Shown here in pieces: positions 4,389-23,441 of a stretch of DNA of 23,441 nt. The notes beneath the pieces were generated by a model. The model was not told where the DNA came from, made no database searches, and worked only from the letters and a program-made list of their open reading frames with translations. Each line of letters begins with the position of its first letter. Within the stretch, counting starts at the first letter, position 1. Source of the DNA: a virus; IMG/VR virus record IMGVR_UViG_3300032456_000020, positions 1 to 23,441 of that record; one strand, 5' to 3'. The position numbers and the translations under genes are program-made.

Positions 4389-5789
4389 CTAAGCGAAACT
4401 TGGCGATCGCTTGCCTTTCTTCAGCAAACTAGCCAATGCAATCACGCAGGCATCAGCGAGATCATCATGCTCTAAGTCCGTTCTTAAAAGTTCCGACACT
4501 AAGGAAGTCATAGGGCGATCGCGATTCAAGATGACCAAGCCATTAGCAAAAATGCCGCTAATCCCCTCTAACCGCTGGTCTTTGTCACCTTTTGGGATGT
4601 ACTCACCGCAATGCCAGCTTAACCGCCGTCGTTTCATTTCATCGCGCCAATCCCCAGCAAAACTAGCTTGGTAAGCAACCCGCTCAACTACCATTTTAAA
4701 CTGTCCATATTGTTTTCTTAATTCGCAGATACGGCGGATTTTTTCTAGGTTGCCAGCCATGCGATAGCGCAAAGCCTCCACCACATAATAGAGGTTACCG
4801 ACCCGCCCGATTAATACCATTGCTGTGTAATCACCTTTCTCCTTCTCACTGGCAGCGAGATCCACGCCCATTAGTAGCTCATCAAAGGCAGTAGGCACCA
4901 CCCCATATTTGATCCACTCTGCTTTAATGATCGCTTCATCATCATTGGGCGGGATGACGTTTTGAAATTGGTAAGCAAAGGTGATCGGGTTCTGCTGCTG
5001 CAAATTCTCTAGGAATTCTAGGCTAAAGCGATCCGCCCAGTAGCTCCGACCTTCCACGATCGCACTTTGTTCGATTAACTTCCAGCCCTGGTCAACCGTA
5101 AACTTGGTAGCGTGTAGGTCATCACGCCGGAATCGTGTTCCAATGTTCCTGACTCTGCCACCCGGAATCAAAGTCGGCATAATCACCTCGTCAATGTTGA
5201 TGATCAGCTTTTCGCGGATTTCTGGGTTTGCGATCGCCGCGCTGGATTTAATTAAGTCATCAAATAAAATCAGGTCAGATCGGCGGCTAGTAATACTGCC
5301 CAGGGCACCCACCCCATAAAAGGTATAGTCGCTATCTAGGCTAGTCACCCCGGCTCGTGACTTATCAATCTCCCAATCTGTGTCACTCCAGCGGGAGCCA
5401 GGGCGAATATGCGGGAATACTTCTTGGTACCGTTTGGACTCAAGCAACCGCTTCACTAAGCGACTCTGTTTTAGTGCAACGCTTTCGCTATAGCCAACGT
5501 AGATGATCTGAATATCAGGCGCTCTACCAATCTCCCAAGCTGCATCTAGCGCTAGCCAGGTACTCTTAGCACTCCCGCGAGGCGACAGGATAGATACTTT
5601 TTCATCATCGCCACACAGCAGCGGCAACCATTCTTTGTGATGATCTGCCGGAATTTTGCCAGCGACATATTCACCGAAAATACCAAGGTCATCCCGCGCG
5701 GCAACCGCTTGCAAGGTGATCTGTTGCCGCGCTGTTCGGGGTTGACGAGTTCTATATCGGCTTCGAGTATAGTCTACTAGAACGGGCAT
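4389..5789 (-). CDS. terL: Terminase large subunit (DNA-packaging motor)
   Basis: The 466-residue length is typical of TerL. The Walker A motif is SPRGSAKST (residues about 69-77). Walker B is LILFDD (about 173-178), and the coupling motif is GTRF (about 217-220). The C-terminal RNase H-like nuclease has its first acidic residue in LLMGVDLAAS (D310), then GDYTA (D320) and a late acidic cluster HDDLADACVIAL. All expected ATPase and nuclease elements are visible, so it is probably active. It starts three bases after the endolysin stop and is followed by the portal gene, forming one leftward late operon. Confidence 0.95.
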   Translation of the reverse strand: MPVLVDYTRSRYRTRQPRTARQQITLQAVAARDDLGIFGEYVAGKIPADHHKEWLPLLCGDDEKVSILSPRGSAKSTWLALDAAWEIGRAPDIQIIYVGYSESVALKQSRLVKRLLESKRYQEVFPHIRPGSRWSDTDWEIDKSRAGVTSLDSDYTFYGVGALGSITSRRSDLILFDDLIKSSAAIANPEIREKLIINIDEVIMPTLIPGGRVRNIGTRFRRDDLHATKFTVDQGWKLIEQSAIVEGRSYWADRFSLEFLENLQQQNPITFAYQFQNVIPPNDDEAIIKAEWIKYGVVPTAFDELLMGVDLAASEKEKGDYTAMVLIGRVGNLYYVVEALRYRMAGNLEKIRRICELRKQYGQFKMVVERVAYQASFAGDWRDEMKRRRLSWHCGEYIPKGDKDQRLEGISGIFANGLVILNRDRPMTSLVSELLRTDLEHDDLADACVIALASLLKKGKRSPSFA

Positions 5790-7032: not shown

Positions 7033-7325
7033 TTTGGCTCAGATTATGGGTGGGTTATTGGCAGGCATACCAACAATCTATTCTATGGTTCCCAGCCACC
7101 AACCCCGATCACCAGAATTCTGGGGGCGATTTGGGTTGGGGCAGGCGCGAGGCATTTCGATGACATATACACACGCCCAGGCGCAAAACAAAAAAAAAGG
7201 CATCGCTGGTAGAACGGTGCCCTGTTCGGTGTCTGTTGCGATTATTACGATCGCAGTTTCATTATGTCATCCAACAATCATGCGGCAATAGGGTAGTCTG
7301 AATGGGCAAGCTACGTTGAGGCACT
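7033..7325. other. Divergent intergenic region, 293 bp
   Basis: It separates the leftward late operon from a rightward gene pair and should hold the late promoter. It contains a perfect 12-bp palindrome CCAGAATTCTGG (7112-7123) and a run of nine A (from about 7190). No convincing -10/-35 pair was seen on either strand. A plus-strand reading frame at 7046-7291 is open, but the product has no recognisable feature and I do not call it a gene. Confidence 0.5.
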
Positions 7326-7751
7326 ATGCAAGTCTTAATCCCTGATTTTCAAGAATATTCTATCGCGCTTAATCCTGACAACCCAATGGATGGAACGCGG
7401 CGACTGAGGGTGGTATGCCGCGAGACTAGTCAGGTTTCTGATGGATACCACACGTTTGATGAGCTGTACAAACATCGCCATTTGTTGTTCTTTGCCTTGC
7501 TTATCCAACACAGTTCAAACGCATATAAGAGTCGCCTGCACTATGACGGATCAAGTTACGAAGGCTGGTTTATTGCAGGGTGTGATTTATTCACAGAGCC
7601 TATTGCATATCATCTGCCCAATTCTATATGGGATTTATGCCCCGTCCGTACAGTTGAACGCGCTCCAGAATGGGACGGACACACGAGTAATGATCTAGTC
7701 GATCACGTAGAGACTTGGCTTAGTCGGTTCACCGCATCTACCCGGCAGTAG
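7326..7751 (+). CDS. Conserved phage protein with SDGYHTFDELY...WDGHTS motifs (copy 1)
   Basis: This 141-residue protein contains VSDGYHTFDELYKHRHLLF (about residues 36-54), then SRLHYDGSSYEGWFIAG, AYHLPNSIWDLC and APEWDGHTSND. I recognise this motif order from hypothetical proteins of many phages and prophages, where the WDGHTS box is the most constant part. The function is not known to me. The conserved His and Asp residues hint at catalysis or metal binding, but this is inference. GAGG four bases before ATG gives a good ribosome site. It is the first member of a tandem pair and lies opposite to the surrounding late genes. Confidence 0.85.
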   Translation: MQVLIPDFQEYSIALNPDNPMDGTRRLRVVCRETSQVSDGYHTFDELYKHRHLLFFALLIQHSSNAYKSRLHYDGSSYEGWFIAGCDLFTEPIAYHLPNSIWDLCPVRTVERAPEWDGHTSNDLVDHVETWLSRFTASTRQ

Positions 7752-7785
7752 GGTAGTCTGGGTGGGCAAGCTACGTTGAGGCACT

Positions 7786-8208
7786 ATGGAAGTCTTAATC
7801 CCTGATGTTAAGGAATATACTGTCAACTTTGATCCTTACAAACAGGATGGAGAGCGACACCTAAGAGTGGTATGCGGCGAGACTGGTCAGATTTCCGATG
7901 GATACCACACATTTGATGAGTTGTATGAACACCGCCATTTGTTGTTCCTTGCCTTGCTTATCCAGCACAGTTCAAGCACGTATAAAAGTCGTCGGCACCA
8001 CGACGGCTCAAGTTACGGCGGCTATTTTATTGCAGGGTGTGATTTATGCCCAGGGATTATTACATATCATCTGCCCAATTCTATGTGGGATTTATGCCCC
8101 GCCCCTGAGATTGAATACGCTCCAGAGTGGGACGGACACACGAGTAATGATGTATGCGATCGCTTGAGAGATTGGGTTAGTCGGTCTGCACCATCTACCC
8201 CGCAGTAG
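7786..8208 (+). CDS. Conserved phage protein with SDGYHTFDELY...WDGHTS motifs (copy 2)
   Basis: A 140-residue paralogue of the preceding gene, with the same leader and ribosome site. It keeps ISDGYHTFDELYEHRHLLF, RHHDGSSYGGYFIAG, TYHLPNSMWDLC and APEWDGHTSND. Differences concentrate in the first 30 residues, the loop after IAGCDL, and the C-terminal 20 residues. All the invariant positions of the family remain in both copies, so neither looks degenerate. Its end overlaps the end of the convergent minus-strand gene by 14 bases. The function is unknown. Confidence 0.85.
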   Translation: MEVLIPDVKEYTVNFDPYKQDGERHLRVVCGETGQISDGYHTFDELYEHRHLLFLALLIQHSSSTYKSRRHHDGSSYGGYFIAGCDLCPGIITYHLPNSMWDLCPAPEIEYAPEWDGHTSNDVCDRLRDWVSRSAPSTPQ

Positions 8209-9313
8209 GGGTCATACCGGGACGCGCCGAGTTGAACACAGACAGCGCCGCCTTTCTTGCTTTCTTCCTTAAGTCTTCTTCTGCATTGGTTGCAATCTGT
8301 GGGCGATCGCGTTCCAGTTGTCGGGCACGATCGTCACCAGCAATTTTGGCAGCTTGACGGGCAGCGCTAGCAGTGTTGTTCTCTCGTGCGATCGCCAGCG
8401 CCGGGTTATCCTGTGGATTGCTGTAATCGGTGATACGGGTGCTAGTGCTAGTGCTGGTGCTGGTGCTAGTGCCTGTTCTGAGGTTTGATGTAGCAGCGCC
8501 GCCGCCTGTTGTACCTGTAGTGAAGCCAGTCGATCGCCCCGCTTCTTGAAGCACCATACGAGCGGAACCACCAGACATTGTGCGAGGAGAACCAAATGGG
8601 TTAGACAGTTCATTGCGTTTCTGCTGTGCGTCAGCCTGCAAGTTAGCCTGAGAGTTAGCCTGATCGGTTCCAGTCCGCCTGGTATCGGAAGCTTTAGCAA
8701 GCGCAGCCAAACCCGCAGCACTGACCTTAGCATTAGCATTAGCAGTAGCGGAACGTTCCCTAGAAGCATCTGATCGCGCCTTAGAATCCGAGCCGATCCG
8801 AGCCGCAACAATACGAGCCGCCGCCGCCGCCCGACCGTCACCGCGAGTAGCGCCAGATGAACTAGATGAGCCACTCTTTTTAGACCCTGCCACCTTTTCA
8901 CGCGATCGGGCGTTAAGGGTAGCAATACGTTCCTTAGATGCATTGGTTTCACGCGATCGCTGGAGTGATGTATCAGGCTTGCTTGACTTACTTTGTTGCC
9001 TTGAATATGCAGCGGAATCTTTCTGTCTTTGTAAGGAGCTTTGGGCAGCACTACGCCCCGTGATCGCCGCCTTATCCCGTGCGATCGCATTACGGTTACT
9101 GTCATTATCTCGCTGCTTACGAAGATCAGCATCGACCTGTTGAACACGTCTGTAATCGCGAATTTGATCACCCACCGGATCTTTTGAAGCGGGGACAAAA
9201 GCGGGAGGGCGATTCGGGTTAGGACTGTCACTAGTCCCAGAGATGCCCGCATTAAAAGAAGCCATGGGCGCTTTAGTCGGGCTTTGTTTTGCCTTTGCCT
9301 TTGCCTTTGTCAC
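8195..9313 (-). CDS. Basic, disordered low-complexity protein; possible internal virion protein
   Basis: This 372-residue protein starts MTKAKAKAKQSPTK and is dominated by Ala, Ser, Arg, Lys, Thr, Gln and Asn, with few aromatic or large hydrophobic residues. It includes runs such as KKSGSSSSSGATRG and a (TS)n tract coded at 8441-8472. One segment (QIRDYRRVQQVDADLRKQRD) and the C-terminal NAEEDLRKKARKAALSVF look helical. The start overlaps the upstream gene's stop by four bases (ATGA). Highly basic, disordered proteins next to lysis or tail genes can be internal or ejected virion proteins; that role is a guess here. Confidence 0.75.
   Translation of the reverse strand: MTKAKAKAKQSPTKAPMASFNAGISGTSDSPNPNRPPAFVPASKDPVGDQIRDYRRVQQVDADLRKQRDNDSNRNAIARDKAAITGRSAAQSSLQRQKDSAAYSRQQSKSSKPDTSLQRSRETNASKERIATLNARSREKVAGSKKSGSSSSSGATRGDGRAAAAARIVAARIGSDSKARSDASRERSATANANAKVSAAGLAALAKASDTRRTGTDQANSQANLQADAQQKRNELSNPFGSPRTMSGGSARMVLQEAGRSTGFTTGTTGGGAATSNLRTGTSTSTSTSTSTRITDYSNPQDNPALAIARENNTASAARQAAKIAGDDRARQLERDRPQIATNAEEDLRKKARKAALSVFNSARPGMTPTAG
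8441..8472. repeat. Hexamer microsatellite (GCTAGT/GCTGGT)
   Basis: About five tandem copies of a 6-bp unit, GCTAGT or GCTGGT, on the plus strand code for the Thr-Ser tract of the minus-strand disordered protein. The unit length keeps the frame, so copy number can vary without breaking the gene. Confidence 0.85.
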
Positions 9314-9633
9314 TGGTGACTCCCCCGGCGATTAAATTGAGTGGTTTTAGCTAGAAATTCTTCCATATCTTCAATCCTGCCAAGGGAGCGATCGCCCGTG
9401 CTAATGAAGCGGGTAGACTTATGTTCAATCACTTCACGCAGTCCATTCGTTGTCAAATCAAGCTTATCTTCCAAATAGATTAGCCGAGTTTGTAGGACCT
9501 GATATTGGTGTTCTAAAGCCTGAAGCTGGTCATAGACCTTTTCCCTGACAGCAAAGATTTTCCAAATTAGCACCAAGATCGGGATGGAGAAGGCGACAAA
9601 GGTAAGAAATTCTTTGATAAAGATAGGTGACAT
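9310..9633 (-). CDS. Membrane-anchored coiled-coil protein; holin or lysis-accessory candidate
   Basis: This 107-residue protein has one N-terminal membrane segment (FLTFVAFSIPILVLIWKIF, about residues 9-27). A long heptad-like helix follows (EKVYDQLQALEHQYQVLQTR...YLEDKLDLTTNGL), then an acidic/polar tail with MEEFLAKTTQFNRR. This one-helix-plus-coiled-coil arrangement is seen in some phage holin or XhlA-like lysis proteins and in cyanobacterial phage hypotheticals. It lies between the L,D-transpeptidase-like gene and the disordered protein, overlapping the latter by four bases. A spanin-like or virion role is possible. No second membrane segment is seen. Confidence 0.8.
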   Translation of the reverse strand: MSPIFIKEFLTFVAFSIPILVLIWKIFAVREKVYDQLQALEHQYQVLQTRLIYLEDKLDLTTNGLREVIEHKSTRFISTGDRSLGRIEDMEEFLAKTTQFNRRGSHQ

Positions 9634-9640
9634 TTTAGAT

Positions 9641-10135
9641 TTACATTTGGTTAACGGTGATCCACATCTTTGATCCGCTTTTAATCAGCTTTTCGAGCAA
9701 TGGCACCACAATTGTTTCCAAATCGCCATTATGCGATCGCACACAGCCCAGCGTAACAAGCAGCGGTTGCTTATCTGCCAGCGGGTTAGGCGCATCCGAT
9801 CCGCCCCCATGCCAGCAGATACCGCCGCGATTATGTTGACGCTCTTGATTTTCTTGCTCAACCATATCGATACAATGCTTTCCAAATGACAGCCAAGTTT
9901 TAGTCGGCTCAGATGGCTGAGTAACAAACAACTCTCCAGCTAGGTATAGCCCCGGTGGAGTATCACCGTTTCGCGCTTGCCACCTAGAACCACTCACACC
10001 TTTACATAATGCTGGAATAGTCCACAGCAGCAAGCCTTTAGCGGAATAACATTTTGCTTCGCCAACCCAGCGAGACTCCCAATCGTTGATCACCACATGA
10101 ACATCACCAGGTTTCAAGTCAGGGCGCTTAGACAT
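9641..10135 (-). CDS. L,D-transpeptidase (YkuD-fold)-like protein; possible peptidoglycan-acting enzyme
   Basis: The 164-residue protein begins MSKRPDLKPGDVHVVIND. It carries YSAKGLLLWTIPALCKG, GDTPPGLYLAGEL, ICWHGGGSDAP and VTLGCVRSHNGD. The pair HGG ... GCxR is the YkuD signature, in which the Cys of GCVR is the nucleophile and His of HGG is catalytic. The GDTPPG segment matches the family's 'TPxGxY' strand. Such enzymes form or cut peptide cross-links in peptidoglycan. There is no signal peptide, so export would need a holin or virion delivery. The ribosome site is GGAG five bases before ATG. It heads a three-gene leftward cluster. Confidence 0.75.
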   Translation of the reverse strand: MSKRPDLKPGDVHVVINDWESRWVGEAKCYSAKGLLLWTIPALCKGVSGSRWQARNGDTPPGLYLAGELFVTQPSEPTKTWLSFGKHCIDMVEQENQERQHNRGGICWHGGGSDAPNPLADKQPLLVTLGCVRSHNGDLETIVVPLLEKLIKSGSKMWITVNQM

Positions 10136-10216
10136 ATTGTCTCCAAAAGTTTAGTATTCCCTGAATAATTCGGTAATTACGATGATTCACCCGGCAAAGC
10201 TTATTTGAGAAAATAG

Positions 10217-10242
10217 AACCCCCAGCGGCAAGGCTGGGGGTT
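10217..10242. terminator. Strong hairpin; terminator or leader structure
   Basis: Perfect 10-bp inverted repeat AACCCCCAGC / GCTGGGGGTT with a 6-base loop GGCAAG. On the minus strand it is followed by CTATTTTCTC, a weak T-rich tail. On the plus strand there is no T run, and the hairpin lies 23 bases before the start of the secreted mini-protein gene. It may separate the divergent units or act in the plus-strand leader. Confidence 0.6.
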
Positions 10243-10265
10243 GAATGTAAACCAATTGAGTCACT

Positions 10266-10382
10266 ATGTTTAAAATTTTACTGCTAATGCTGCTGGTTTT
10301 GCCAGTGGTTAGCTTGCCTGATCAAGCCCAAGCCGGAAGGGATGGGGCACCAAGCGGTAGAATCGGAGGTGGAACCCGGTAG
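10266..10382 (+). CDS. Secreted mini-protein with GGGTR motif, 38 residues
   Basis: The short frame begins MFKILLLMLLVLPVVSL, a textbook hydrophobic signal sequence, and has a likely cleavage site after AQA (residues 21-23). The mature peptide would be only 15 residues: GRDGAPSGRIGGGTR. A G.P..R.GGGTR pattern occurs in exported cyanobacterial proteins (for example DUF928-type), from memory rather than a search. I see no lipobox Cys. The gene sits alone between a hairpin and the next plus gene. It may act as a periplasmic peptide, or could be a decayed N-terminus of a larger secreted protein. Confidence 0.6.
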   Translation: MFKILLLMLLVLPVVSLPDQAQAGRDGAPSGRIGGGTR

Positions 10383-10414
10383 TAGCGATCGCCTATAACT
10401 TTAGTGGAGGACTT

Positions 10415-10651
10415 ATGGCTCAGTTTAGGAAAAAGCCTGTAATTGTTGAAGCGGAGCAGTTTCTTTATGAACAAGACCCAAAAACTTATCCTCCAGATAT
10501 GCAATGGTCAGACGAGCATGAGAGTTACACAATTCCAACGCTGGAAGGAATTTATGTTGTCAGCGACAAGGACTGGATTATTACCGGAGTTAAGGGCGAA
10601 CGTTATCCCTGCAAGCCTGAAATTTTTGAATTAACCTACGAGCCAGCATGA
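10415..10651 (+). CDS. Conserved small phage protein (FRKKPVIVEA...YPCKPEIFE type)
   Basis: This 78-residue protein begins MAQFRKKPVIVEAEQF and ends DWIITGVKGERYPCKPEIFE. I recognise this arrangement from small hypothetical proteins common in phages and prophages of many hosts, where the start 'FRKKPVVIEA' and the 'GDW/YIITGVKGE.YPCKPDIFE' box are constant. The biochemical function is unknown to me. A strong ribosome site GGAGG precedes the ATG by four bases. The frame stays open for about 67 further codons after the TGA stop. Confidence 0.9.
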   Translation: MAQFRKKPVIVEAEQFLYEQDPKTYPPDMQWSDEHESYTIPTLEGIYVVSDKDWIITGVKGERYPCKPEIFELTYEPA

Positions 10652-10953
10652 GCAAGAGCCGCTAACGCGATATGCGATCGCTGGGGTACACCACACAGGG
10701 CAAGGCAAGTATACGCGATTAGGAATCCGGCAAAGGGCGGCGTTACGGTCGCTACCTATCAAGGCTGTGGCGAAATCATTAGCGTGGTGCAGTCCGCTCT
10801 CTACACTTGCAAGTCACGGCAGGCGGAGCAAAGTCTAGGGCGAAATCAAGGTTAAGTGCCGCCTCGTGCCGTGCCCCTTCTGCCTATTCTCTGGGGTGAA
10901 GTCAAAGTCAAGGTAGCCGCGTCAGGAGAGCCTGTCCTGTTTTGGTGTTTGTC
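10652..10953 (+). other. Region after the conserved small protein: in-frame open stretch without a start
   Basis: After the TGA at 10649-10651 the same frame continues open to a TAA at about 10853-10855. It encodes segments such as VYAIRNPAKGGVTVATYQGC and GEIISVVQSALYTCKSRQAE, which look protein-like, but there is no ATG, GTG or TTG in a sensible place. It could be a decayed second gene, a readthrough extension or chance. The remaining part to 10953 contains an AGGAG at 10924-10928 that may serve the GT-rich gene that follows. Confidence 0.35.
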
Positions 10954-11217
10954 ATGGCTGTTTTGTCTTGTTCGTCGGTTTCTGGTTCGTGGTCGTTGGG
11001 TCGGGCGTTTGGTTGTCCGGGTCTGTGGTCGTTGCGTTGTCCGTTGGGCGCTGAGCATCGGGCTGCGGCTCGGCTGTCTGCGTTGGGCTTGGTTGTGGCT
11101 TCGTCGTCGGGCTGTGGGGTTGGGGCTGGTTCGTTTGGTCTGGTGCTGTTCTCGGCTCCTCGGTCTGCGGCGGCGGCGTTGCGGTCGGTGTCTGCTGGGG
11201 TTGCGGCGGCGGTCTAG
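10954..11217 (+). CDS. GT-strand-biased gene 1, unknown protein of 87 residues
   Basis: The frame MAVLSCSSVSGSWSLG...VSAGVAAAV is rich in Ala, Ser, Val, Gly and Leu. The coding strand has only four A in 264 bases, and codons end almost always in G or T. In-frame TTG (10942) and GTG (10945) starts are alternatives; an AGGAG at 10924-10928 is rather far from all of them. A canonical terminator with a TTCG tetraloop lies 11 bases past the stop, supporting rightward transcription. The complementary strand is also open and encodes a Pro/Thr/Gln-rich sequence, which I take as a by-product of composition. No family was recognised. Confidence 0.5.
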   Translation: MAVLSCSSVSGSWSLGRAFGCPGLWSLRCPLGAEHRAAARLSALGLVVASSSGCGVGAGSFGLVLFSAPRSAAAALRSVSAGVAAAV

Positions 11218-11228
11218 TGGCTTTGGTG

Positions 11229-11257
11229 GGGGGCTTCGGCTCCCTGCCCTTTTTTTT
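11229..11257 (+). terminator. Rho-independent terminator with TTCG tetraloop
   Basis: Stem GGGGGC / GCTCCC (one G-T pair) closed by a TTCG loop, then TGCCC and eight T (11250-11257). It begins 11 bases after the stop of the first GT-rich gene. The tetraloop and T run make this a convincing plus-strand terminator. Confidence 0.85.
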
Positions 11258-11466
11258 GCGTGGAAGCAAAGACTGGGATAAACGCCACTCCATTGCGATC
11301 CGTTCACTGTTCCGGCTTGCTGCACTCCCTCCGCTTGAGGCTACGGTCGGTTCCGCTACACCTCCACGGGCGCTCTCTCCATCTCCATTCCGCTTAGTCT
11401 GTGATCTGTCAGAACAGCCGCTCTCGTTCGTGTCGCTAGCACTTGCTCACTCCGAGCTATACAGCC

Positions 11467-11495
11467 AACCCGGAAACCCGGAAAGAGAACCCGGA
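11467..11495. repeat. Three direct AACCCGGA repeats
   Basis: AACCCGGA occurs at 11467-11474, 11475-11482 (abutting) and 11488-11495. They lie in the 383-bp gap between the first GT-rich gene's stop and the second gene's start, about 75 bases upstream of a TATAAT box. They may be protein-binding sites. The rest of 11258-11567 holds no gene I can support. Confidence 0.6.
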
Positions 11496-11567
11496 GGAAC
11501 AGGAGAAATGCTTGTTTTTGGGAAAAAGTCAAGGGTGTTTTGGCGGTTTCTTTTGCACTCAGTTTAC

Positions 11568-11603
11568 GGTATAATTACCTTATGTTGTTGGTTTTTACTC
11601 ATG
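11568..11603 (+). promoter_or_regulatory. Promoter and short leader (TATAAT type), copy 1
   Basis: A perfect TATAAT (11570-11575) sits in GGTATAATTACCTTA, followed by GTTGGTTTTTACTCATG, with ATG at 11601. The same block recurs at 11983-12017 before another gene, with nearly the same TATAAT-to-ATG distance (25 against 24 bases after the box). No good -35 was seen, so an activator may be needed. The leader of about 20 bases contains no Shine-Dalgarno sequence. Confidence 0.7.
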
Positions 11604-11879
11604 CTGTCTGCTCTTCCTGCTGGTTGTTTTGCTGCCCCTGCTTCCTCGCGCTGGTCTGGCTATGTGGTTTTGGTTGTTCCGGTCAGTGGCGGCACTATTG
11701 GCGCGGCGCTTAAGTCGCTTAGCTGTTCGCTTATGGCGGCTCAGTGTTCCTCCCTCTGTGGCGGTTTCTACGGGGTTTTGGTGCAGTGCCCTAGGCGTGT
11801 TCGTTGGGCGTTGCTTTCCTTACCCCGCCCGGTTGCCGCTGGTTCTTTGGGCGTGGCGGCTTGCTTGCCTTGGCTCTAG
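11601..11879 (+). CDS. GT-strand-biased gene 2, unknown protein of 92 residues
   Basis: I chose the ATG at 11601 because the matching leader copy at 11983-12017 also ends in an ATG. The protein begins MLSALPAGCFAAPASSRW and contains YVVLVVPVSGGTIGAALKSL, with seven Cys. A makes up about 5% of the coding strand (15 of 279 bases), and codons end mostly in G, T or C. The stop is 22 bases before a strong terminator, so this is a complete promoter-gene-terminator unit. VVPVSGGTIGAAL could be a strand-loop-helix of a nucleotide-binding fold, but that is speculation. No family was recognised. Confidence 0.6.
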   Translation: MLSALPAGCFAAPASSRWSGYVVLVVPVSGGTIGAALKSLSCSLMAAQCSSLCGGFYGVLVQCPRRVRWALLSLPRPVAAGSLGVAACLPWL

Positions 11880-11901
11880 GGGGGCGGCTGCGCCACCCCA
11901 C

Positions 11902-11929
11902 AGCCTCCAAAGTTGGGGGCTTTTTTTTG
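11902..11929 (+). terminator. Rho-independent terminator after GT-rich gene 2
   Basis: Stem AGCCTCC / GGGGGCT (one T-G pair), loop AAAGTT, then eight T. It begins 22 bases after the stop of the gene at 11601-11879. A second small GC-rich hairpin-like stretch (GGGGCGGCTGCGCCACCCC) lies between. Confidence 0.85.
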
Positions 11930-11945
11930 TGTAAAGTTAGGATAA

Positions 11946-11999
11946 ATTAAGGTAAATTTGCCCCAATTAACCCGCTAAGTAGGGTATAATTACCTTAAT
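11946..11999. promoter_or_regulatory. Candidate operator: 10-bp inverted repeat flanking a promoter
   Basis: ATTAAGGTAA (11946-11955) and its exact reverse complement TTACCTTAAT (11990-11999) are 34 bases apart. The right arm overlaps the last base of the TATAAT box (11985-11990) and covers the likely transcription start. This layout fits a repressor that binds both arms, perhaps with looping. The right arm (TTACCTTA) is also present at the first promoter copy, but no left arm was found there. Confidence 0.6.
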
Positions 12000-12017
12000 G
12001 AGTTGGTTTTACGCATG
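11983..12017 (+). promoter_or_regulatory. Promoter and short leader (TATAAT type), copy 2
   Basis: GGTATAATTACCTTA at 11983-11997, then GTTGGTTTTACGCATG ending at the ATG of the next gene (12015). It matches copy 1 at 11568-11603 over the whole block with few changes. The two genes share no protein similarity that I can see, so the promoter-leader moved or was conserved independently. Confidence 0.7.
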
Positions 12018-12224
12018 GCTTCTCTCGATCAAGGTTTCTACTTTCAGCATTTACGGGCAAACCCAATCACAGCCGAGTATTACGCCGTTGCTGCAAAGTT
12101 TCGTGATTTATTCGGCATCAAAATCACCTGCTATGTGATCGAGTGGCGCAAGTTTGCCCACTGCTACTGGGTTCACATTCCCGGCTGTCGTCCTCGGTTT
12201 GTTTCCTTCAATTCAATCAAATAG
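12015..12224 (+). CDS. Unknown small protein, 69 residues
   Basis: The ATG at 12015 is chosen by analogy to the duplicated leader. The protein starts MASLDQGFYFQHLRANPITA. It has a helical middle (EYYAVAAKFRDLFGIKI) and an aromatic, Cys/His-containing end (WRKFAHCYWVHIPGCRPRF). Composition is normal, unlike the GT-rich gene before it. No Shine-Dalgarno sequence is present, so translation may be leaderless-like. I recognise no family. Confidence 0.65.
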   Translation: MASLDQGFYFQHLRANPITAEYYAVAAKFRDLFGIKITCYVIEWRKFAHCYWVHIPGCRPRFVSFNSIK

Positions 12225-12230
12225 CAAAAT

Positions 12231-12256
12231 CCCCAGAGCAGTTAGCGGCTCTGGGG
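12231..12256. other. Intergenic hairpin
   Basis: A perfect 9-bp inverted repeat CCCCAGAGC / GCTCTGGGG with an 8-base loop lies seven bases after the stop of the previous gene. There is no T run after it, so it is not a classic terminator. It precedes the ribosome site of the gene at 12294 and may protect or process the mRNA. Confidence 0.7.
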
Positions 12257-12293
12257 CATTCGTCCCCAAAGCAAGAAAGGAGATATACAGATT

Positions 12294-12566
12294 ATGGACT
12301 ACCTAGAAGTCAATCAACCCGGCGAATTGATCGAGAAGGGACTACAGCAGGCACTAGAGCAGGCGCACACGCGGGACGGAACCATGGACGCATATTACAG
12401 CGATTCACCTGAGAAAAAAGATCCAGCTTATCTAGATGGTTATTTGGCGGAGATCAGGCGGCGAGTAGAGGCAGGCGAACGCCTAGAGATTAGATGGTTC
12501 TCTGAATCCTTCAAGAGCGGAGCATATGACGCGCCCGACTGGTTCAACGACGGAGAGGGATTTTGA
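12294..12566 (+). CDS. Unknown acidic protein, 90 residues
   Basis: The protein starts MDYLEVNQPGELIEKGLQQA and is strongly acidic, with AYYSDSPEKKDPAYLDGYL and RRRVEAGERLEIRWFSES, ending APDWFNDGEGF. AAGGAG lies 12 bases before the ATG, a rather long spacing. It has no signal peptide or membrane segment. The stop overlaps the next gene's ATG by one base. Short acidic early phage proteins often bind and inhibit host factors, but nothing here points to a partner. Confidence 0.75.
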   Translation: MDYLEVNQPGELIEKGLQQALEQAHTRDGTMDAYYSDSPEKKDPAYLDGYLAEIRRRVEAGERLEIRWFSESFKSGAYDAPDWFNDGEGF

Positions 12567-12784
12567 TGAGAAATAAGGAGAAAACCGTGAAATTTGAAGT
12601 TGCTAATAACTGGATTTTCTCTAAGAGAGATCTTGCAAATCACGTACTCACATCAAGCGATCGCATCCGTCCTGATGCGTGGATCTTCGACTTTGAAGCC
12701 CAGGCGGCATGGGCAGCAGCAAGGCTAAACAAAACAGAAGCAAAGCACGGGCGCATATATGCCGTCGCTTGCATCATCAATTAA
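12566..12784 (+). CDS. Unknown small protein, 72 residues
   Basis: An ATG at 12566 overlaps the previous stop and has GAGGG six bases upstream. An internal GTG at 12587 has an even better site (AAGGAG, six bases) and would give 65 residues starting at KFEVANNWIFSKRDL. The C-terminal part, WIFDFEAQAAWAAARLNKTE, is helical. No family was recognised. It is followed, nine bases after the stop, by the first of three repeated leader elements. Confidence 0.7.
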   Translation: MRNKEKTVKFEVANNWIFSKRDLANHVLTSSDRIRPDAWIFDFEAQAAWAAARLNKTEAKHGRIYAVACIIN

Positions 12785-12792
12785 GCCAACAA

Positions 12793-12816
12793 GCGCACAG
12801 CCGGGAGTAGCGCCCC
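12793..12816 (+). repeat. Repeated leader element, copy 1 of 3
   Basis: The core contains CAGCCGGGAGTAGCGCCCC and lies 43 bases before the ATG of the gene at 12836. Other copies are at 13022-13045 and 13255-13278. The hairpin GGG / CCC is weaker here than in the other copies because CCCCTATC replaces CCCCGGTA. Confidence 0.85.
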
Positions 12817-12835
12817 TATCTACAGGTTTCTAATC

Positions 12836-13015
12836 ATGCAAATTTACAAGATTTATCCCGACTATCTCGATATTAGCTGTAACGGAAGCCGAAACCTGAT
12901 CGCCCGTTATTGCAGCATTTACGAGTATCACGCCAACGCGACTAGTTTCTCATCAAGCCAGTACAAGCTAAGCACCCAATGGGAGCAATGGGGTAAAGAG
13001 CTAGCCAAGCTTTAA
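12836..13015 (+). CDS. Unknown small protein, 59 residues
   Basis: This gene follows leader element copy 1. The protein starts MQIYKIYPDYLDISCNGSRN and ends QWEQWGKELAKL. It is rich in Tyr and Ser, with two Cys, and has neither signal peptide nor membrane segment. No Shine-Dalgarno sequence is visible before ATG. The neighbouring genes share the same leader but not the protein sequence. I recognise no family; the gene is supported by its position between two leader elements and by balanced composition. Confidence 0.6.
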   Translation: MQIYKIYPDYLDISCNGSRNLIARYCSIYEYHANATSFSSSQYKLSTQWEQWGKELAKL

Positions 13016-13021
13016 CCACCC

Positions 13022-13045
13022 GCGCACAGCCGGGAGTAGCGCCCC
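13022..13045 (+). repeat. Repeated leader element, copy 2 of 3
   Basis: The core is identical to copies 1 and 3, and is extended by GGTATTCA, shared with copy 3. The arms CCGGG (13031-13035) and CCCGG can pair around AGTAGCGC. The ATG of the next gene lies 49 bases from the core's start. Confidence 0.88.
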
Positions 13046-13070
13046 GGTATTCACAAGAGCAAGGCTAATC

Positions 13071-13244
13071 ATGTCGAAGATTATTATCACGATCAACACA
13101 GATAACGCAGCGTTTGACGACGAAGACGAACTTAGACGCATCCTTAAAGAGTTATCCGAAAGGATAGAAATTAGCGACTTTCCCACGATGTTAAGGGATA
13201 TAAACGGGAACTACGTTGGAAGTATTGAATACGTCGAAGACTAA
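13071..13244 (+). CDS. Small conserved phage-type protein, 57 residues (INTDNAAF...LRDINGN)
   Basis: The protein starts MSKIIITINTDNAAFDDEDE, continues LRRILKELSERIE and ends TMLRDINGNYVGSIEY. Small proteins with 'I.T.NAAF.D...E..RIL..LA.RL' and a final 'DINGN.VG' segment are common in phage and plasmid genomes, from memory. Their role is not established to my knowledge. The gene is preceded by leader element copy 2 and followed, 10 bases after its stop, by copy 3. Confidence 0.75.
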   Translation: MSKIIITINTDNAAFDDEDELRRILKELSERIEISDFPTMLRDINGNYVGSIEYVED

Positions 13245-13254
13245 CGCAGACCCC

Positions 13255-13278
13255 GCGCACAGCCGGGAGTAGCGCCCC
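13255..13278 (+). repeat. Repeated leader element, copy 3 of 3
   Basis: The core is identical to copy 2, extended by GGTATTCA. The next ATG is 45 bases from the core's start, with AGAGG as ribosome site. Spacing between the three copies is 229 and 233 bases. Confidence 0.88.
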
Positions 13279-13299
13279 GGTATTCAAGAGGAAACCAAG

Positions 13300-13710
13300 A
13301 TGAAAATCTTAGAGAATGGCAAGGGCAAGTGCCTAGCACCAGAAAATAAAATTGATCACCAACTACTAACAGCGCTAGCGATCGCCCAAGGTGGGGAAGA
13401 ATGGACGCTGCACAAATTATCGGGTTCTGAATTGGCTCAAGAAGCGACGATCCTGTTTGAGATAGACCTCGAATGGTTTGGGGATGGGACAGCCAGCTTA
13501 GAAGTTTGTTTTAAAAATGTCCCCTTCGATCCGCTTAGCAAGGTATCCGGCAATCGGGAGACAATTATTTTCTGGGTACAAGTACACGAGGATCAAACTT
13601 TAAACGTTATGTGGCAAGCCGCAGGGCAAATAAAGTGGCTCCCTCACAAGCCATCTTTTGCCAATTTATTACCCTCAGCAGCGGCTAGAACCAATGGCGG
13701 TGAATCATGA
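13300..13710 (+). CDS. Unknown protein, 136 residues, coupled to the SSB-like gene
   Basis: The protein starts MKILENGKGKCLAPENKIDH. It has a helical stretch HQLLTALAIAQGGEEW and alternating strands (ILFEIDLEWFGDGTASLEVC, ETIIFWVQVHEDQTLNVMW). It ends with a Pro/Ala tail. No motif was recognised. The stop overlaps the ATG of the SSB-like gene by four bases (ATGA), which suggests the two proteins act together, perhaps in replication or recombination. It is the third gene led by the repeated leader element. Confidence 0.75.
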   Translation: MKILENGKGKCLAPENKIDHQLLTALAIAQGGEEWTLHKLSGSELAQEATILFEIDLEWFGDGTASLEVCFKNVPFDPLSKVSGNRETIIFWVQVHEDQTLNVMWQAAGQIKWLPHKPSFANLLPSAAARTNGGES

Positions 13711-14210
13711 CTATCACCCTGATCACAGCGATCGTAAAACAACCCGCCACGCTCTTGCAAACCCAATGGGGGGAGAAGCTGAAAGCCACCGTTAATGATG
13801 GCAGGCAAGACATAGAGCTATGGCGAAAGCCCAATGATTCATCACTGCTATCGCTGAGCCTAGGGCAGCAGGTAACAATGACCGCAAAGCCAGCAACTAG
13901 CAGCAGTGGAACTGCTTACACCCAATACGATATCGTTACAGCCGCCGATCGCGTTAGCCCCCCCACCAACGGTAACGGTAACGGTAACGGTAACGGGCAC
14001 ATTGCCCCAGGCGTTCAAGCAATGAATACGCCAGTAGCTCACCCCGCAAAACCTGCGTTAAATGCCGATGTCAAGGAATGGATCTCAATCTTTGAAGAGC
14101 TAAAAGCAGCCTTGCCCCAGGCTCAAGAACATACATGGAGGGCAGCAGCTTCTACGCTATTTATTCAGCGGTTGCAGGTTAGGGCAAATTTTAATAATGA
14201 GGTATTCTAG
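13707..14210 (+). CDS. Single-stranded DNA-binding (OB-fold) protein candidate
   Basis: Residues 1-80 form an alternating strand pattern (MTITLITAIVKQPATLLQTQ, GEKLKATVNDGRQDIELW, LSLGQQVTMTAKPA, TQYDIV) typical of an OB fold. An Asn-Gly linker (NGNGNGNGNGH, residues about 88-98) follows, then a helical C-terminal domain (EWISIFEELKAALPQAQEHT). It lacks the usual acidic tip of bacterial SSB (DDDIPF) and ends NNEVF. The SSB role is inferred from strand pattern, linker and location in the replication region, so an alternative OB-fold partner protein is possible. Confidence 0.5.
   Translation: MTITLITAIVKQPATLLQTQWGEKLKATVNDGRQDIELWRKPNDSSLLSLSLGQQVTMTAKPATSSSGTAYTQYDIVTAADRVSPPTNGNGNGNGNGHIAPGVQAMNTPVAHPAKPALNADVKEWISIFEELKAALPQAQEHTWRAAASTLFIQRLQVRANFNNEVF
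13971..13994. repeat. GGTAAC hexamer repeat, four copies
   Basis: Four perfect GGTAAC units code for the Gly-Asn linker of the OB-fold candidate. Length changes by whole units keep the frame. Confidence 0.9.
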
Positions 14211-14232
14211 CCTTAGAAGTAGAGGCAAAACC

Positions 14233-14499
14233 ATGAACGCAGAGGATAGATCACGGGCGATTTTGGTCGCGATCGCCCTAGAAGCAAAAGAAAAATGGGG
14301 AAGCAGATGGCAGGCTGGATTAGTCAGTAATTACTGTTATATCGAGAGCCAGGAGACGGGCGAGAAAGTTCTGCCTGTCAATCGACGGAAGCAAATTGTC
14401 CGTAGCTTTGAGGAAGGTAGCTGTACCTTGGGATCTCTCTGCCGGATTGCCGAAGCGGTAGGGGCTGAAGTTGAGTTGACGATCAAGAGAAAATTATAG
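14233..14499 (+). CDS. Helix-turn-helix-like regulator candidate, 88 residues
   Basis: The ATG at 14233 has AGAGG seven bases upstream; an earlier in-frame ATG at 14197 overlaps the previous gene and has no such site. The C-terminal 40 residues (NRRKQIVRSFEEGSCTLGSL then CRIAEAVGAEVELTIKRK) resemble a Cro/antitoxin-type helix-turn-helix, in which 'TLGSLCRIAEAVGAEVEL' follows the pattern 'TL..L..IA.ALG..LE'. The N-terminal half is helical (SRAILVAIALEAKEKWG). It might repress the plus-strand promoters upstream, which is inference. Confidence 0.6.
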   Translation: MNAEDRSRAILVAIALEAKEKWGSRWQAGLVSNYCYIESQETGEKVLPVNRRKQIVRSFEEGSCTLGSLCRIAEAVGAEVELTIKRKL

Positions 14500-14570
14500 G
14501 CACAGGTTACTCAAATGGAAAGGCTTACACGCTGCGGAGTGGAGACTGTGAAGTTAGGCATTACAGCGCA

Positions 14571-15269
14571 ATGAACATCAATGATGAAGGTTTGACGGGT
14601 CCAGATTTAAGAAATGTAAATCTCAAGGGTGCAAATCTAAGTTACGGCTATCTAGAAAATGCAAACCTGAGAGGTACAGATCTCAGGGGTGCAGATATAA
14701 AAAGTGCCCATCTCAATGGGGCAAATCTAGGAAATGCAAACCTAAAAGGTGCAAATCTCAGGGGTGCCCACCTAGATTACGCATATCTCAGGGGTGTAGA
14801 TCTCAGGGGTGGAGATCTCAGTTACGCCAGCCTGAAATATGCAGATCTAGGAGGCGCGAATCTCAGGGGTGTAGATCTCAGGGGGGCAAATCTCTTTGGG
14901 GCAGATCTCAGTTACACGGACCTTAGAGGAGCAGATCTAAATTACGCAGATCTAGAAAATGCATGTCTCAGGGGTTCATATCTCAAAGGTTCGGATATCA
15001 GATTAGCAAATCTAATTCAGATCAAAGAAGATTTTTTCAAGAGGACAGCACCCCAGCTCCAAGAACTAAAGATGCTTCGATCTGCCTTAATCGCAGGAAA
15101 AGTCAACGGTCAAAGCAAGACAAGATTCTTTGCCTTCCAAAATTCCGTATGCCCAATACAAAGGTGGTTTCTGGGTATAAGCCCAGGTAATACAAATGAA
15201 AGTTCCGAGATAGTCGAAATAACGGTCGGATGGATCGACGAAATCTTAAATAGCAACTCCCACGGCTAA
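14571..15269 (+). CDS. Pentapeptide-repeat protein with unusual C-terminal domain
   Basis: Residues about 8-150 contain some 28 pentapeptide units (A[D/N]LXX pattern: GANLSYGYLENANLRGTDLR and onward), which form a right-handed quadrilateral beta helix. After them comes a cyanobacterial-type C-terminal region: EDFFKRTAPQLQELKMLRSA, AGKVNG, then IQRWFLGISPGNT and a final WIDEIL. In the family the Cys-rich 'GECACLVGTIAN' segment normally follows GKVNG; here it is missing and replaced by QSKTRFFAFQNSVCP. Pentapeptide proteins of phages and bacteria can mimic DNA and protect gyrase, but function cannot be fixed here. The start codon at 14571 lacks a clear ribosome site. Confidence 0.85.
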   Translation: MNINDEGLTGPDLRNVNLKGANLSYGYLENANLRGTDLRGADIKSAHLNGANLGNANLKGANLRGAHLDYAYLRGVDLRGGDLSYASLKYADLGGANLRGVDLRGANLFGADLSYTDLRGADLNYADLENACLRGSYLKGSDIRLANLIQIKEDFFKRTAPQLQELKMLRSALIAGKVNGQSKTRFFAFQNSVCPIQRWFLGISPGNTNESSEIVEITVGWIDEILNSNSHG

Positions 15270-18581: not shown

Positions 18582-18926
18582 ATGACAATTGAATTGACCG
18601 ATGTCATCGAATTTCATAGAAACCTCCCACACCAAAAGAAGGCGATCGCTTATCTGCAAGCCAATATCCCTGAAGATACCTTGACAAAATTCGCTGATTT
18701 ATGGAGGGTCATGAATCAAAAAACGCCCCTAAGCGCGAAGTGGGAGCAAGAAGCGATCAGGGAAATTTCTCTGATCGCTTCTTGCTTGTGTATAGGAAAA
18801 TTCCAAAACCCAATCGCGCTACGGGATGAATTATTGAATCTCGCGGACCGCGTTTGTGGCGAAGGAAAAACGCTAAGGATGCAAACACCAGACCCCGACG
18901 ATTGTTGGGAAGAGAATTCACTCTAG
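18582..18926 (+). CDS. Mosaic protein: endolysin-type N-terminal module plus duplicated C-terminal module, 114 residues
   Basis: Residues about 2-42 (IELTDVIEFHRNLPHQ...IPEDTLTKFADLWR) match the endolysin's N-terminal module, with 22 identical positions in 41 aligned by eye. Residues about 50-90 match the C-terminal part of the upstream gene at 18195. The last residues (TPDPDDCWEENSL) are unique. If the first module binds cell wall or a lysis partner, this small protein could compete with or regulate the endolysin; that is inference. Its end overlaps the convergent minus-strand gene by nine bases. Confidence 0.75.
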   Translation: MTIELTDVIEFHRNLPHQKKAIAYLQANIPEDTLTKFADLWRVMNQKTPLSAKWEQEAIREISLIASCLCIGKFQNPIALRDELLNLADRVCGEGKTLRMQTPDPDDCWEENSL

Positions 18927-22525: not shown

Positions 22526-22920
22526 TGCCGCATCGCGCTTACGTTCAAATATTGATGATTGTCGGGGTTGTTGTAGTTCGTTGCCCCCAGGAAACGCCCC
22601 AGGCGATCTGTCTCTTTGATGTAAGCCTGATCGCGTTCCTTTTGGGATGGGGCACGGAATTCAACATCGCTATAATTGCGATCGCCCGTGAGTACCCGCC
22701 GAGATGCAATACCGCTATCTTGTGCATCCGTTTCGGTTTCGTCAAATGTGCGATCGCATCGGTTAAGCAGCTTCACCGCCCAGGCAATCCATTGCACCGT
22801 GCGACTATTATCATTCAATGCCGCCCTGAGAATCACCTCATCGCCAAACGGAACCGCCCGACTGGTATAGCCCAGATGGTTTTTAGCCCGTTCTTCATCG
22901 GCAAAGAGCAGCATCGGCAT
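22522..22920 (-). CDS. Head-tail connector-region protein, 132 residues (complete copy)
   Basis: The protein starts MPMLLFADEERAKNHLGYTS and has helices RTVQWIAWAVKLLNRCDRTF and PSQKERDQAYIKETDRLGRF. The C-terminus is Asn/Tyr-rich (ATNYNNPDNHQYLNVSAMRQ). Mostly helical proteins of this length just after the capsid genes are often head-tail adaptors (gp6/gp15-like), but I see no specific motif. The start overlaps the previous stop (TAATG), and the end overlaps the 71-residue gene (ATGA). The left partial copy (1-309) shows substitutions scattered along the protein. Confidence 0.8.
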   Translation of the reverse strand: MPMLLFADEERAKNHLGYTSRAVPFGDEVILRAALNDNSRTVQWIAWAVKLLNRCDRTFDETETDAQDSGIASRRVLTGDRNYSDVEFRAPSQKERDQAYIKETDRLGRFLGATNYNNPDNHQYLNVSAMRQ

Positions 22921-23192
22921 TAAATGACTGCTCCATCTTTATCTAGCGGTATCCGTTTGCCGCTTGCTTTTGGTGCAGGTGGGAATTTATTAAAGCTGAT
23001 TTCGTGGGGTTCGATAAAGTCAGGCAACCCAGCGACATCGCCTTTTGGCTGATAGCAAAGCACCATACCAGAGCCATTCAGCAAAACATCTGCTTCAATC
23101 TTTTCACCCTTATAGAACAACTGATCTAAGGGGACATCGACCGAGAAATCACCAAAATAATCAGGGGTCAAAATAATTGGCGATCTTTTCAT
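22920..23192 (-). CDS. Small virion-region protein, 90 residues (right copy)
   Basis: The second copy of the gene at 309-581, starting MKRSPIILTPDYFGDF. Eleven base differences give four residue changes (positions 2, 40, 88 and 90); the rest are silent. The reading frame and both overlaps with neighbours are intact, so both copies look functional. In the circular reading they are alleles of a single gene. Confidence 0.85.
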   Translation of the reverse strand: MKRSPIILTPDYFGDFSVDVPLDQLFYKGEKIEADVLLNGSGMVLCYQPKGDVAGLPDFIEPHEISFNKFPPAPKASGKRIPLDKDGAVI

Positions 23193-23441
23193 AGCAAATC
23201 ACTCCGATAAATAATATTTAATTCACGTTCCTGTTCCCGCGATAGCAAAATGCCATCATCCACCGTAGGGGCACCCACAAGCATTTGGAATACAACCCGC
23301 ACATCGACCCGCACTGGACGAATTTGGGGCGAGTTTGGCGGCGCAACCGTCGCACCTACGGGCGATTGGTTAGTTCCTTGCAGTGTCCGAGTCCCAGGAT
23401 CAATATTGCCAGCATGCAAAAACAGCTTAGGGCTGAAGTTG
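23189..23441 (-). CDS. Virion-region protein, partial right copy (C-terminal 83 codons)
   Basis: The end of the gene corresponding to 578-1183, cut by the window edge at 23441. Within the shared part only one residue differs (SREQERELN against SHEQERELN) and the other three base changes are silent. The overlap of four bases with the 90-residue gene is kept. Confidence 0.8.
   Translation of the reverse strand, partial: NFSPKLFLHAGNIDPGTRTLQGTNQSPVGATVAPPNSPQIRPVRVDVRVVFQMLVGAPTVDDGILLSREQERELNIIYRSDLL

Follow-up and report, generated by a model that had tools for sequence, protein, structure and literature searches.

What are two neighboring stretches of viral DNA that are nearly devoid of adenine on one strand, both read in the same direction and each closed by its own terminator? 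They lie in an IMG/VR virus record (IMGVR_UViG_3300032456_000020), which was analyzed over its whole length of 23,441 bases and is referred to here as the window. To our knowledge, genes that nearly dispense with one base and whose amino acids and stop codons are suited to this have not been recognized before, and no paper describing such A-poor genes by title or abstract was found in the literature searched (open-licence papers only).

Unit 1 covers positions 10941 to 11258 of the plus strand, from 13 nt 5' of an ATG to the end of a terminator T-run, and contains 0 A's in 10941 to 10953, 4 in 10954 to 11217, and 0 in 11218 to 11258 (the 41-nt 3' untranslated region [UTR]). Its open reading frame, ORF1 (10954 to 11217, plus strand; 87 amino acids, ATG to TAG), has 4 A, 56 C, 114 G, and 90 T in 264 nt. 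Unit 2 (11583 to 11928, plus strand) extends from just 3' of a TATAAT box through ORF2 (11601 to 11879, plus strand; 92 amino acids, ATG to TAG), which has 15 A, 76 C, 90 G, and 98 T in 279 nt; the 3' UTR of this unit shows no such depletion (6 A's in 49 nt). The coding-strand A contents of 1.5% and 5.4% agree with the initial annotation (four A's in 264 bases and about 5%), and those of the neighboring genes are normal. When A was counted in 264-nt windows across the 23.4 kb, the two units gave the two lowest counts (3 and 13; next, 33; mean, 68), and the longest A-free run was 158 nt (11058 to 11215, in unit 1), compared with at most 50 nt in 60 order-1 Markov simulations of the window. The extremes are confined to the two units, as had been stated from the sequence, and a repeat search found no tandem array.

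A rho-independent terminator closes each unit. That of unit 1 (11225 to 11257, plus strand) consists of a 10-pair stem (11225 to 11248) with a TTCG loop followed by CTTTTTTTT (T8), and that of unit 2 (11902 to 11928, plus strand) consists of an 8-pair stem (11902 to 11921) followed by T8; they are the first and fourth entries in a list of 10 terminator-like sites between 10200 and 12700, where shuffled sequences led us to expect 3.7. This bears out the initial annotation, which placed the genes 11 to 22 bases before their terminators; the stop codon and the stem are separated by 7 nt for ORF1 and by 22 nt for ORF2. Upstream of unit 2, the TATAAT box (11570 to 11575) and its leader (11565 to 11595, plus strand) recur as an 84% repeat at 11980 to 12010, before the next gene. 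An A/G-rich tract of 48 nt with two CCGGAA copies (11461 to 11508, plus strand), which is the longest stretch without T in the window, lies 74 nt before unit 2. The start of ORF2 is unsure; it may be the ATG at 11601, with the TATAAT box upstream, or the ATG at 11508, preceded by GGAGG, which would give 123 amino acids. The structure model of the longer form was poor (pLDDT, 53).

Each of the stop codons TAA, TAG, and TGA includes an A, and each of their complements a T, so that stops are absent from all six frames of an A-free strand. Overlapping ORFs were found on both strands over the A-poor region; such open frames follow from composition and are by themselves no proof of coding. ORF1 nevertheless has a triplet rhythm that is real and not due to composition: C occupies 5 of 86 third codon positions versus 37 of 86 second positions (chi-square, 39.5), a value reached by none of 2,000 dinucleotide shuffles. 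G or T fills the third position of 81 of its 86 codons, and of the four A's, two belong to the start and stop codons of the rhythm-bearing frame. No such rhythm was detected in ORF2 (422 of 2,000 shuffles as high), where A occurs 7, 5, and 1 times at codon positions 1, 2, and 3 (91 each). Third positions are free of A in 86 of 86 codons of ORF1 and in 90 of 91 of ORF2. Unit 1 also folds more stably than its shuffles (z = −3.07; 1 of 100 as low), and unit 2 folds like its own (z = 0.09).

Homology searches with the window ORFs yielded no credible homolog in phages (blastn and tblastn), plasmids, viral contigs, or 373 cyanobacterial genomes. One ORF1 match in the cyanobacterial genomes (E = 3e-4) had two internal stops and 19% A and was judged to be due to chance, and the four phage matches all fell on a neighboring gene (10415 to 10651). 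ORF1 matched no family in Pfam, PHROG (best E = 0.022), NCBIfam, or PADLOC, neither ORF had a relative in the four profile libraries, and the antisense reading of unit 1 (10952 to 11293, minus strand) had no match in phages, PHROGs, or NCBIfam. The initial annotation had proposed that the proteins fit no known family, and this was borne out; it had also counted a lack of homologs with a conserved frame against its own reading, and none were found for ORF1 or ORF2. Their coding may therefore be argued from rhythm and from analogy with the genes described below.

The window appears to be nearly complete, because its ends (7 to 830 and 22618 to 23441) are 96% alike; it is a near-complete genome assembled from joined strain variants. 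The genome appears to be cyanophage-like; its terminase (4389 to 5789, minus strand) has its best match among isolated phages in Synechococcus phage S-EIV1 (36.9%). No close relative covers the A-poor units, since a contig that is 96% alike (L002) covers the remainder of the genome but not 9454 to 14717 and a relative with a terminase 76% alike (L003) has no matching early region. Searching with the genes that neighbor the units yielded no relatives. The terminase search returned 48 loci, none of them A-poor (lowest, 27 A's in 250 nt), and DNA matching the A-poor region was absent from these loci (21 of the 48 records were searched whole). A 100-amino-acid protein at 14197 to 14499 has a relative (28%; E = 3e-11) on a virus contig (L175) that carries an A-purged gene of the kind described next. 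Elsewhere in the window, we noted tandem duplicate genes of unassigned function (7283 to 7753 and 7743 to 8210; 83% alike in DNA) and a near-perfect palindrome of 42 nt (18745 to 18786).

A composition pattern that excluded A and required G or T at each third base was applied to 386 cyanobacterial genomes and matched 88 of them; the matches listed were mostly simple repeats. Long A-free repeats, such as CCCTTTG arrays, occur in many cyanobacterial genomes and are unrelated to the purged genes. Nonrepetitive A-poor genes were chosen by eye among the matches listed, so that their number is a lower bound. Two of these (L155 and L156) were homologous to each other, about 560 nt long, and 2% A, with a T-run of 9 to 10 at the end, and their protein led to 12 plasmid records, 10 virus contigs, and 13 of the 386 genomes; 9 of the 12 plasmid records from this first protein search were examined, together with 8 new ones from the 19 in a later search. 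INPHARED phages contained no purged member of this family, which we call A1.

The A1 protein resembles DprA/SLOG proteins, and its predicted structure resembles the Rossmann fold of DprA. Like DprA/Smf (SLOG superfamily, PF02481), it has GSR and GCAxGxD motifs; 4 of 11 members matched PF02481 weakly (best E = 3.2e-4, below the Pfam cutoff), as did a member with normal A content, L195 (E = 2.8e-4; 20.6 bits versus a cutoff of 29.6). Among the structures listed by VIA-align, the one that aligned best with the model (pLDDT, 85) was Helicobacter pylori DprA (Z = 9.5; root mean square deviation, 3.0; 129 residues); MilB and DNPH1 gave Z values of 6.5 to 6.7, in the range (<8) that may be due to chance. 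Foldseek alone returned no match for the model at an E value of 0.001, and a PDB sequence search found nothing below 0.1. A1 differs from DprA/Smf in being a single short domain that scores below the Pfam cutoff and in its nearly A-free coding sequence. The window ORFs matched neither; against the A1 profile they had no hit with an E value of <1, and 942 (ORF1) and 1,488 (ORF2) of 2,000 shuffles scored as high.

Members of A1 occur in two states. Of the 36 tabulated, 27 have 0.3 to 7.5% A, a range that brackets both window ORFs, and 9 have 17.6 to 33% A; the table includes close relatives but leaves out near-copies (L180, L185 to L187, L190, and L193), duplicate records (L199 to L218), and L277, whose protein is identical to that of L195. 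At fourfold-degenerate sites, A accounts for 0 to 7.9% in the poor members and for 16 to 41% in the others, and lysines number 0 to 2 and 6 to 13, respectively. Stop codons follow suit, with 24 TAG, 2 TGA, no TAA, and one gene cut off among the poor members versus 7 TAA and 2 TAG among the A-rich ones. The 3' UTRs of eight purged members contain 5 A's in 229 nt versus 14 in 56 nt for A-rich L195; this sum excludes L170 (16 A's in 86 nt, with the first T6 far from the stop) and members without T6 within 90 nt. On a midpoint-rooted tree without L182 (cut by a contig end), in which composition may disturb the topology, the two states require two changes (0 of 500 shuffles as low), namely, a single gain and a single reversion, to 18% A, inside a poor clade. 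The return is seen in virus L179 (2782 to 3306), whose A-rich contig has 37% A in the flanks of the gene, and looks like a loss of the trait.

Purged A1 genes often head operons with ardA or other establishment genes. They lie upstream of ardA in Nostoc PCC 7524, on pNLP3, and in copy 2 of the purged module on pSYSX, a plasmid (L168 and L220) that holds two copies with 30 differences in 561 sites between the DprA-like genes; A-rich members also adjoin ardA, on pAQ5 and in Fischerella, in the opposite reading direction. In this placement upstream of ardA, the purged genes are similar to plasmid leading-region antidefense genes (ArdA and others), for which base purging goes unmentioned in the part of the source available (PMC11541004); no oriT was located in the present analysis.

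A second pattern (80 bases without A followed by TAG), run over the same 386 genomes, revealed further nonrepetitive genes among the matches listed, belonging to families a and b. In Picosynechococcus PCC 7002, the two lie side by side on plasmid pAQ5 (17276 to 17906); the gene of family a has 1 A in 258 nt, that of family b has 3 A's in 288 nt, and the nuclease gene directly downstream has 27.9% A. The C terminus of family a looks by eye as if it may form a winged helix; family b was absent from the viral contigs searched. One genome (G148) carries a purged DprA-like gene whose conserved part is preceded, at a distance of about 1.3 kb, by a gene of family b, and on Microcystis p1 a short A-poor unit ending in T8 directly precedes the promoter of a second DprA-like copy. 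The window follows the same order, i.e., short unit, terminator, spacer, TATAAT, and second unit. By eye, ORF1 resembles family b and the start of ORF2 resembles the starts of Nostoc DprA-like genes, but neither similarity rose above shuffles. Against family b, 436 (ORF1) and 470 (ORF2) of 2,000 shuffles scored as high, and against family a, 1,000 and 49 of 1,000 did. The T-free upstream tract was likewise considered as a part common to purged genes. Such a tract is the longest of its locus at unit 2, at L177, at three Microcystis loci, and at the DprA-like gene of G148, as well as at one gene with normal A content, but this does not hold for most other loci. A similar CCGGAAG array precedes a purged DprA-like gene in virus G427 (L221, reverse strand, about 2844 to 2876).

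Comparisons between close relatives bear on whether the depletion is being maintained. Under strand-symmetric mutation, G-to-A changes are expected to be about as common as C-to-T changes. In Picosynechococcus families a and b, 179 differences included 0 A/G and 102 C/T (three overlapping pairs, which are not independent), versus 34 and 64 in the neighboring nuclease gene. The DprA-like genes of Synechococcus elongatus plasmids gave 7 A/G and 39 C/T (252 and 263 in the downstream genes), those of Nostoc gave 16 and 73, and the pSYSX copies gave 4 and 9 (119 and 92 downstream). These counts suggest that new A's are now being kept out of the purged genes, for which selection against A is the best-fitting explanation; a mutator that is fast and specific for A would produce much the same A/G deficit. 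The initial annotation had raised an unusual mutational or transfer history; an oddity of that kind confined to this genome is not favored, because three further gene families show the trait and A is still kept out between close relatives. Its suggestion to look on cyanobacterial plasmids and phages proved fruitful in that A-poor genes of the same style were found there.

Together, these genes look like a previously unnoticed class in cyanobacterial phages and plasmids, made up of short genes that each end in a terminator and have a sense strand purged of A. The trait appears in several unrelated families, affects synonymous sites, amino acids, stop choice, and often the 3' UTR, and ends at gene borders. 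We assign a probability of about 0.5 to the reading that the window units belong to this class by hallmark and that the class reflects selection against A in the sense strand. The window ORFs are placed in it by looks and location, not by homology; their lack of homology to the purged families, together with the absent rhythm and the A-bearing 3' UTR of unit 2, speaks against membership.

We infer that the selection acts on RNA rather than on DNA. The purged genes would be made early after entry and translated while defenses act. An A-free transcript would survive adenosine-directed RNA attack, for example, by toxins that sit on the ribosome and cleave codons with a final A, and the proteins would still be made while the host destroys mRNA in answer to the invader. 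More broadly, it is possible, though we hold it only tentatively, that a set of unrelated genes in cyanobacterial phages and plasmids keep their mRNAs free of adenosine because they have to function when RNA containing it is being degraded or when adenosine nucleotides run short. Protection from RNA attack, taken on its own, is the weakest step and a doubtful one. In the parts of the sources available, several toxins favor codons ending in A, among them HigB and TAC HigB, and a HigBAC module is triggered by a phage protein (PMC9098466 and PMC11980606), but several toxins also cut codons without A (PMC9098466). Such adenosine-preferring mRNA interferases would be the pressure on the purged genes, which lack A at position 3, rather than their relatives. 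Against this step, nothing in the present analysis points to an A-directed attack in these hosts, and rRNA and tRNA keep their A's. A codon-acting toxin also leaves the A-poor 3' UTRs unexplained, and an agent acting off the ribosome would be needed.

Several other explanations were weighed against selection on the RNA. The units might be A-free structured regulatory RNAs that make no protein, in line with the functional RNA suggested initially. Their discrete form, strong terminators, and lack of protein homologs, as well as the folding of unit 1, agree with this, but the ordinary folding of unit 2, the triplet rhythm of unit 1, the absence of Rfam matches above the gathering score across the whole window, and the amino acids kept by families a, b, and A1 make it unlikely; the best-studied genes of this style are conserved proteins. 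Selection on DNA is rather unlikely as well. A T-free template or A-free sense strand might help single-stranded entry or remove m6A and palindromic restriction sites, and both the position of purged genes beside ardA and other establishment genes and the early reading of plasmid leading regions from single strands, as described in the available part of PMC11541004, would suit it. Shielding 0.5 kb of a 30- to 290-kb replicon from restriction is a small gain, however, and the members with normal A content in Fischerella, Calothrix, and Nostoc SO-36 show no depletion of the other strand (T, 23 to 30%). It is quite improbable that the window units are low-complexity or decayed sequence merely resembling the class: they lack homologs, and unit 2 lacks a rhythm, but the 158-nt A-free run is far beyond chance, there is no tandem array, and in unit 1 the ATG and TAG share the rhythm frame with a terminator just behind.

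Mutation and self-protection would place the cause elsewhere. A mutagenic copying step or another A-specific process acting on the transcript could erode A while selection keeps the few A's that are needed. The loss is limited to sense-strand A within the transcribed stretch, short-lived A's would also make A/G differences scarce, and on pAQ5 a gene for reverse transcriptase lies roughly 1.4 kb from that of family b. Diversity-generating retroelements are one comparison, since in them change singles out A in one transcript strand; the purged genes, however, lose A rather than vary. A linked retroelement is unlikely because no reverse transcriptase is present in 16 of 19 records, the window included (PF00078 was found in 3 of 19 and in none of the window and 7 virus records, which may be fragments). 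The DprA-like protein, moreover, remains conserved, and A-directed mutagenesis seems to us as improbable as decay. Least probable of all is that the purged products bind or damage adenine-bearing nucleic acid and that A-free mRNA escapes its own product. The DprA-like fold includes single-stranded DNA binders and nucleotide N-glycosidases, and the alignments of A1 with H. pylori DprA, MilB, and DNPH1 fit this idea; against it, neither families a and b nor the window ORFs are known to have this fold, family members with normal A content exist, and Z values of <8 may be due to chance.

The examples on pAQ5 (PCC 7002) and pSYSX (PCC 6803) make both cause and function directly testable. If A-free RNA is a shield, it would point to an unseen A-directed defense; a mutational origin of the depletion would instead imply a mutator specific for A that has so far gone unseen. 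The idea that adenosine-free mRNAs keep working through RNA destruction or adenosine shortage, if true, would amount to base-level armor for early antidefense genes and would open a new front in the conflict between hosts and their parasites.

Two hypothetical proteins (WP_015116174.1 and WP_273769980.1) are annotated antisense to purged genes at L167 (3092 to 3523) and L170 (3092 to 3523, minus strand), where gene callers were probably misled because T-free strands are open in all frames. On pAQ5 (L271, 4280 to 4450), an "ACT beta-lactamase" entry in PLSDB covers a 171-bp hypothetical gene and is probably a false resistance call.
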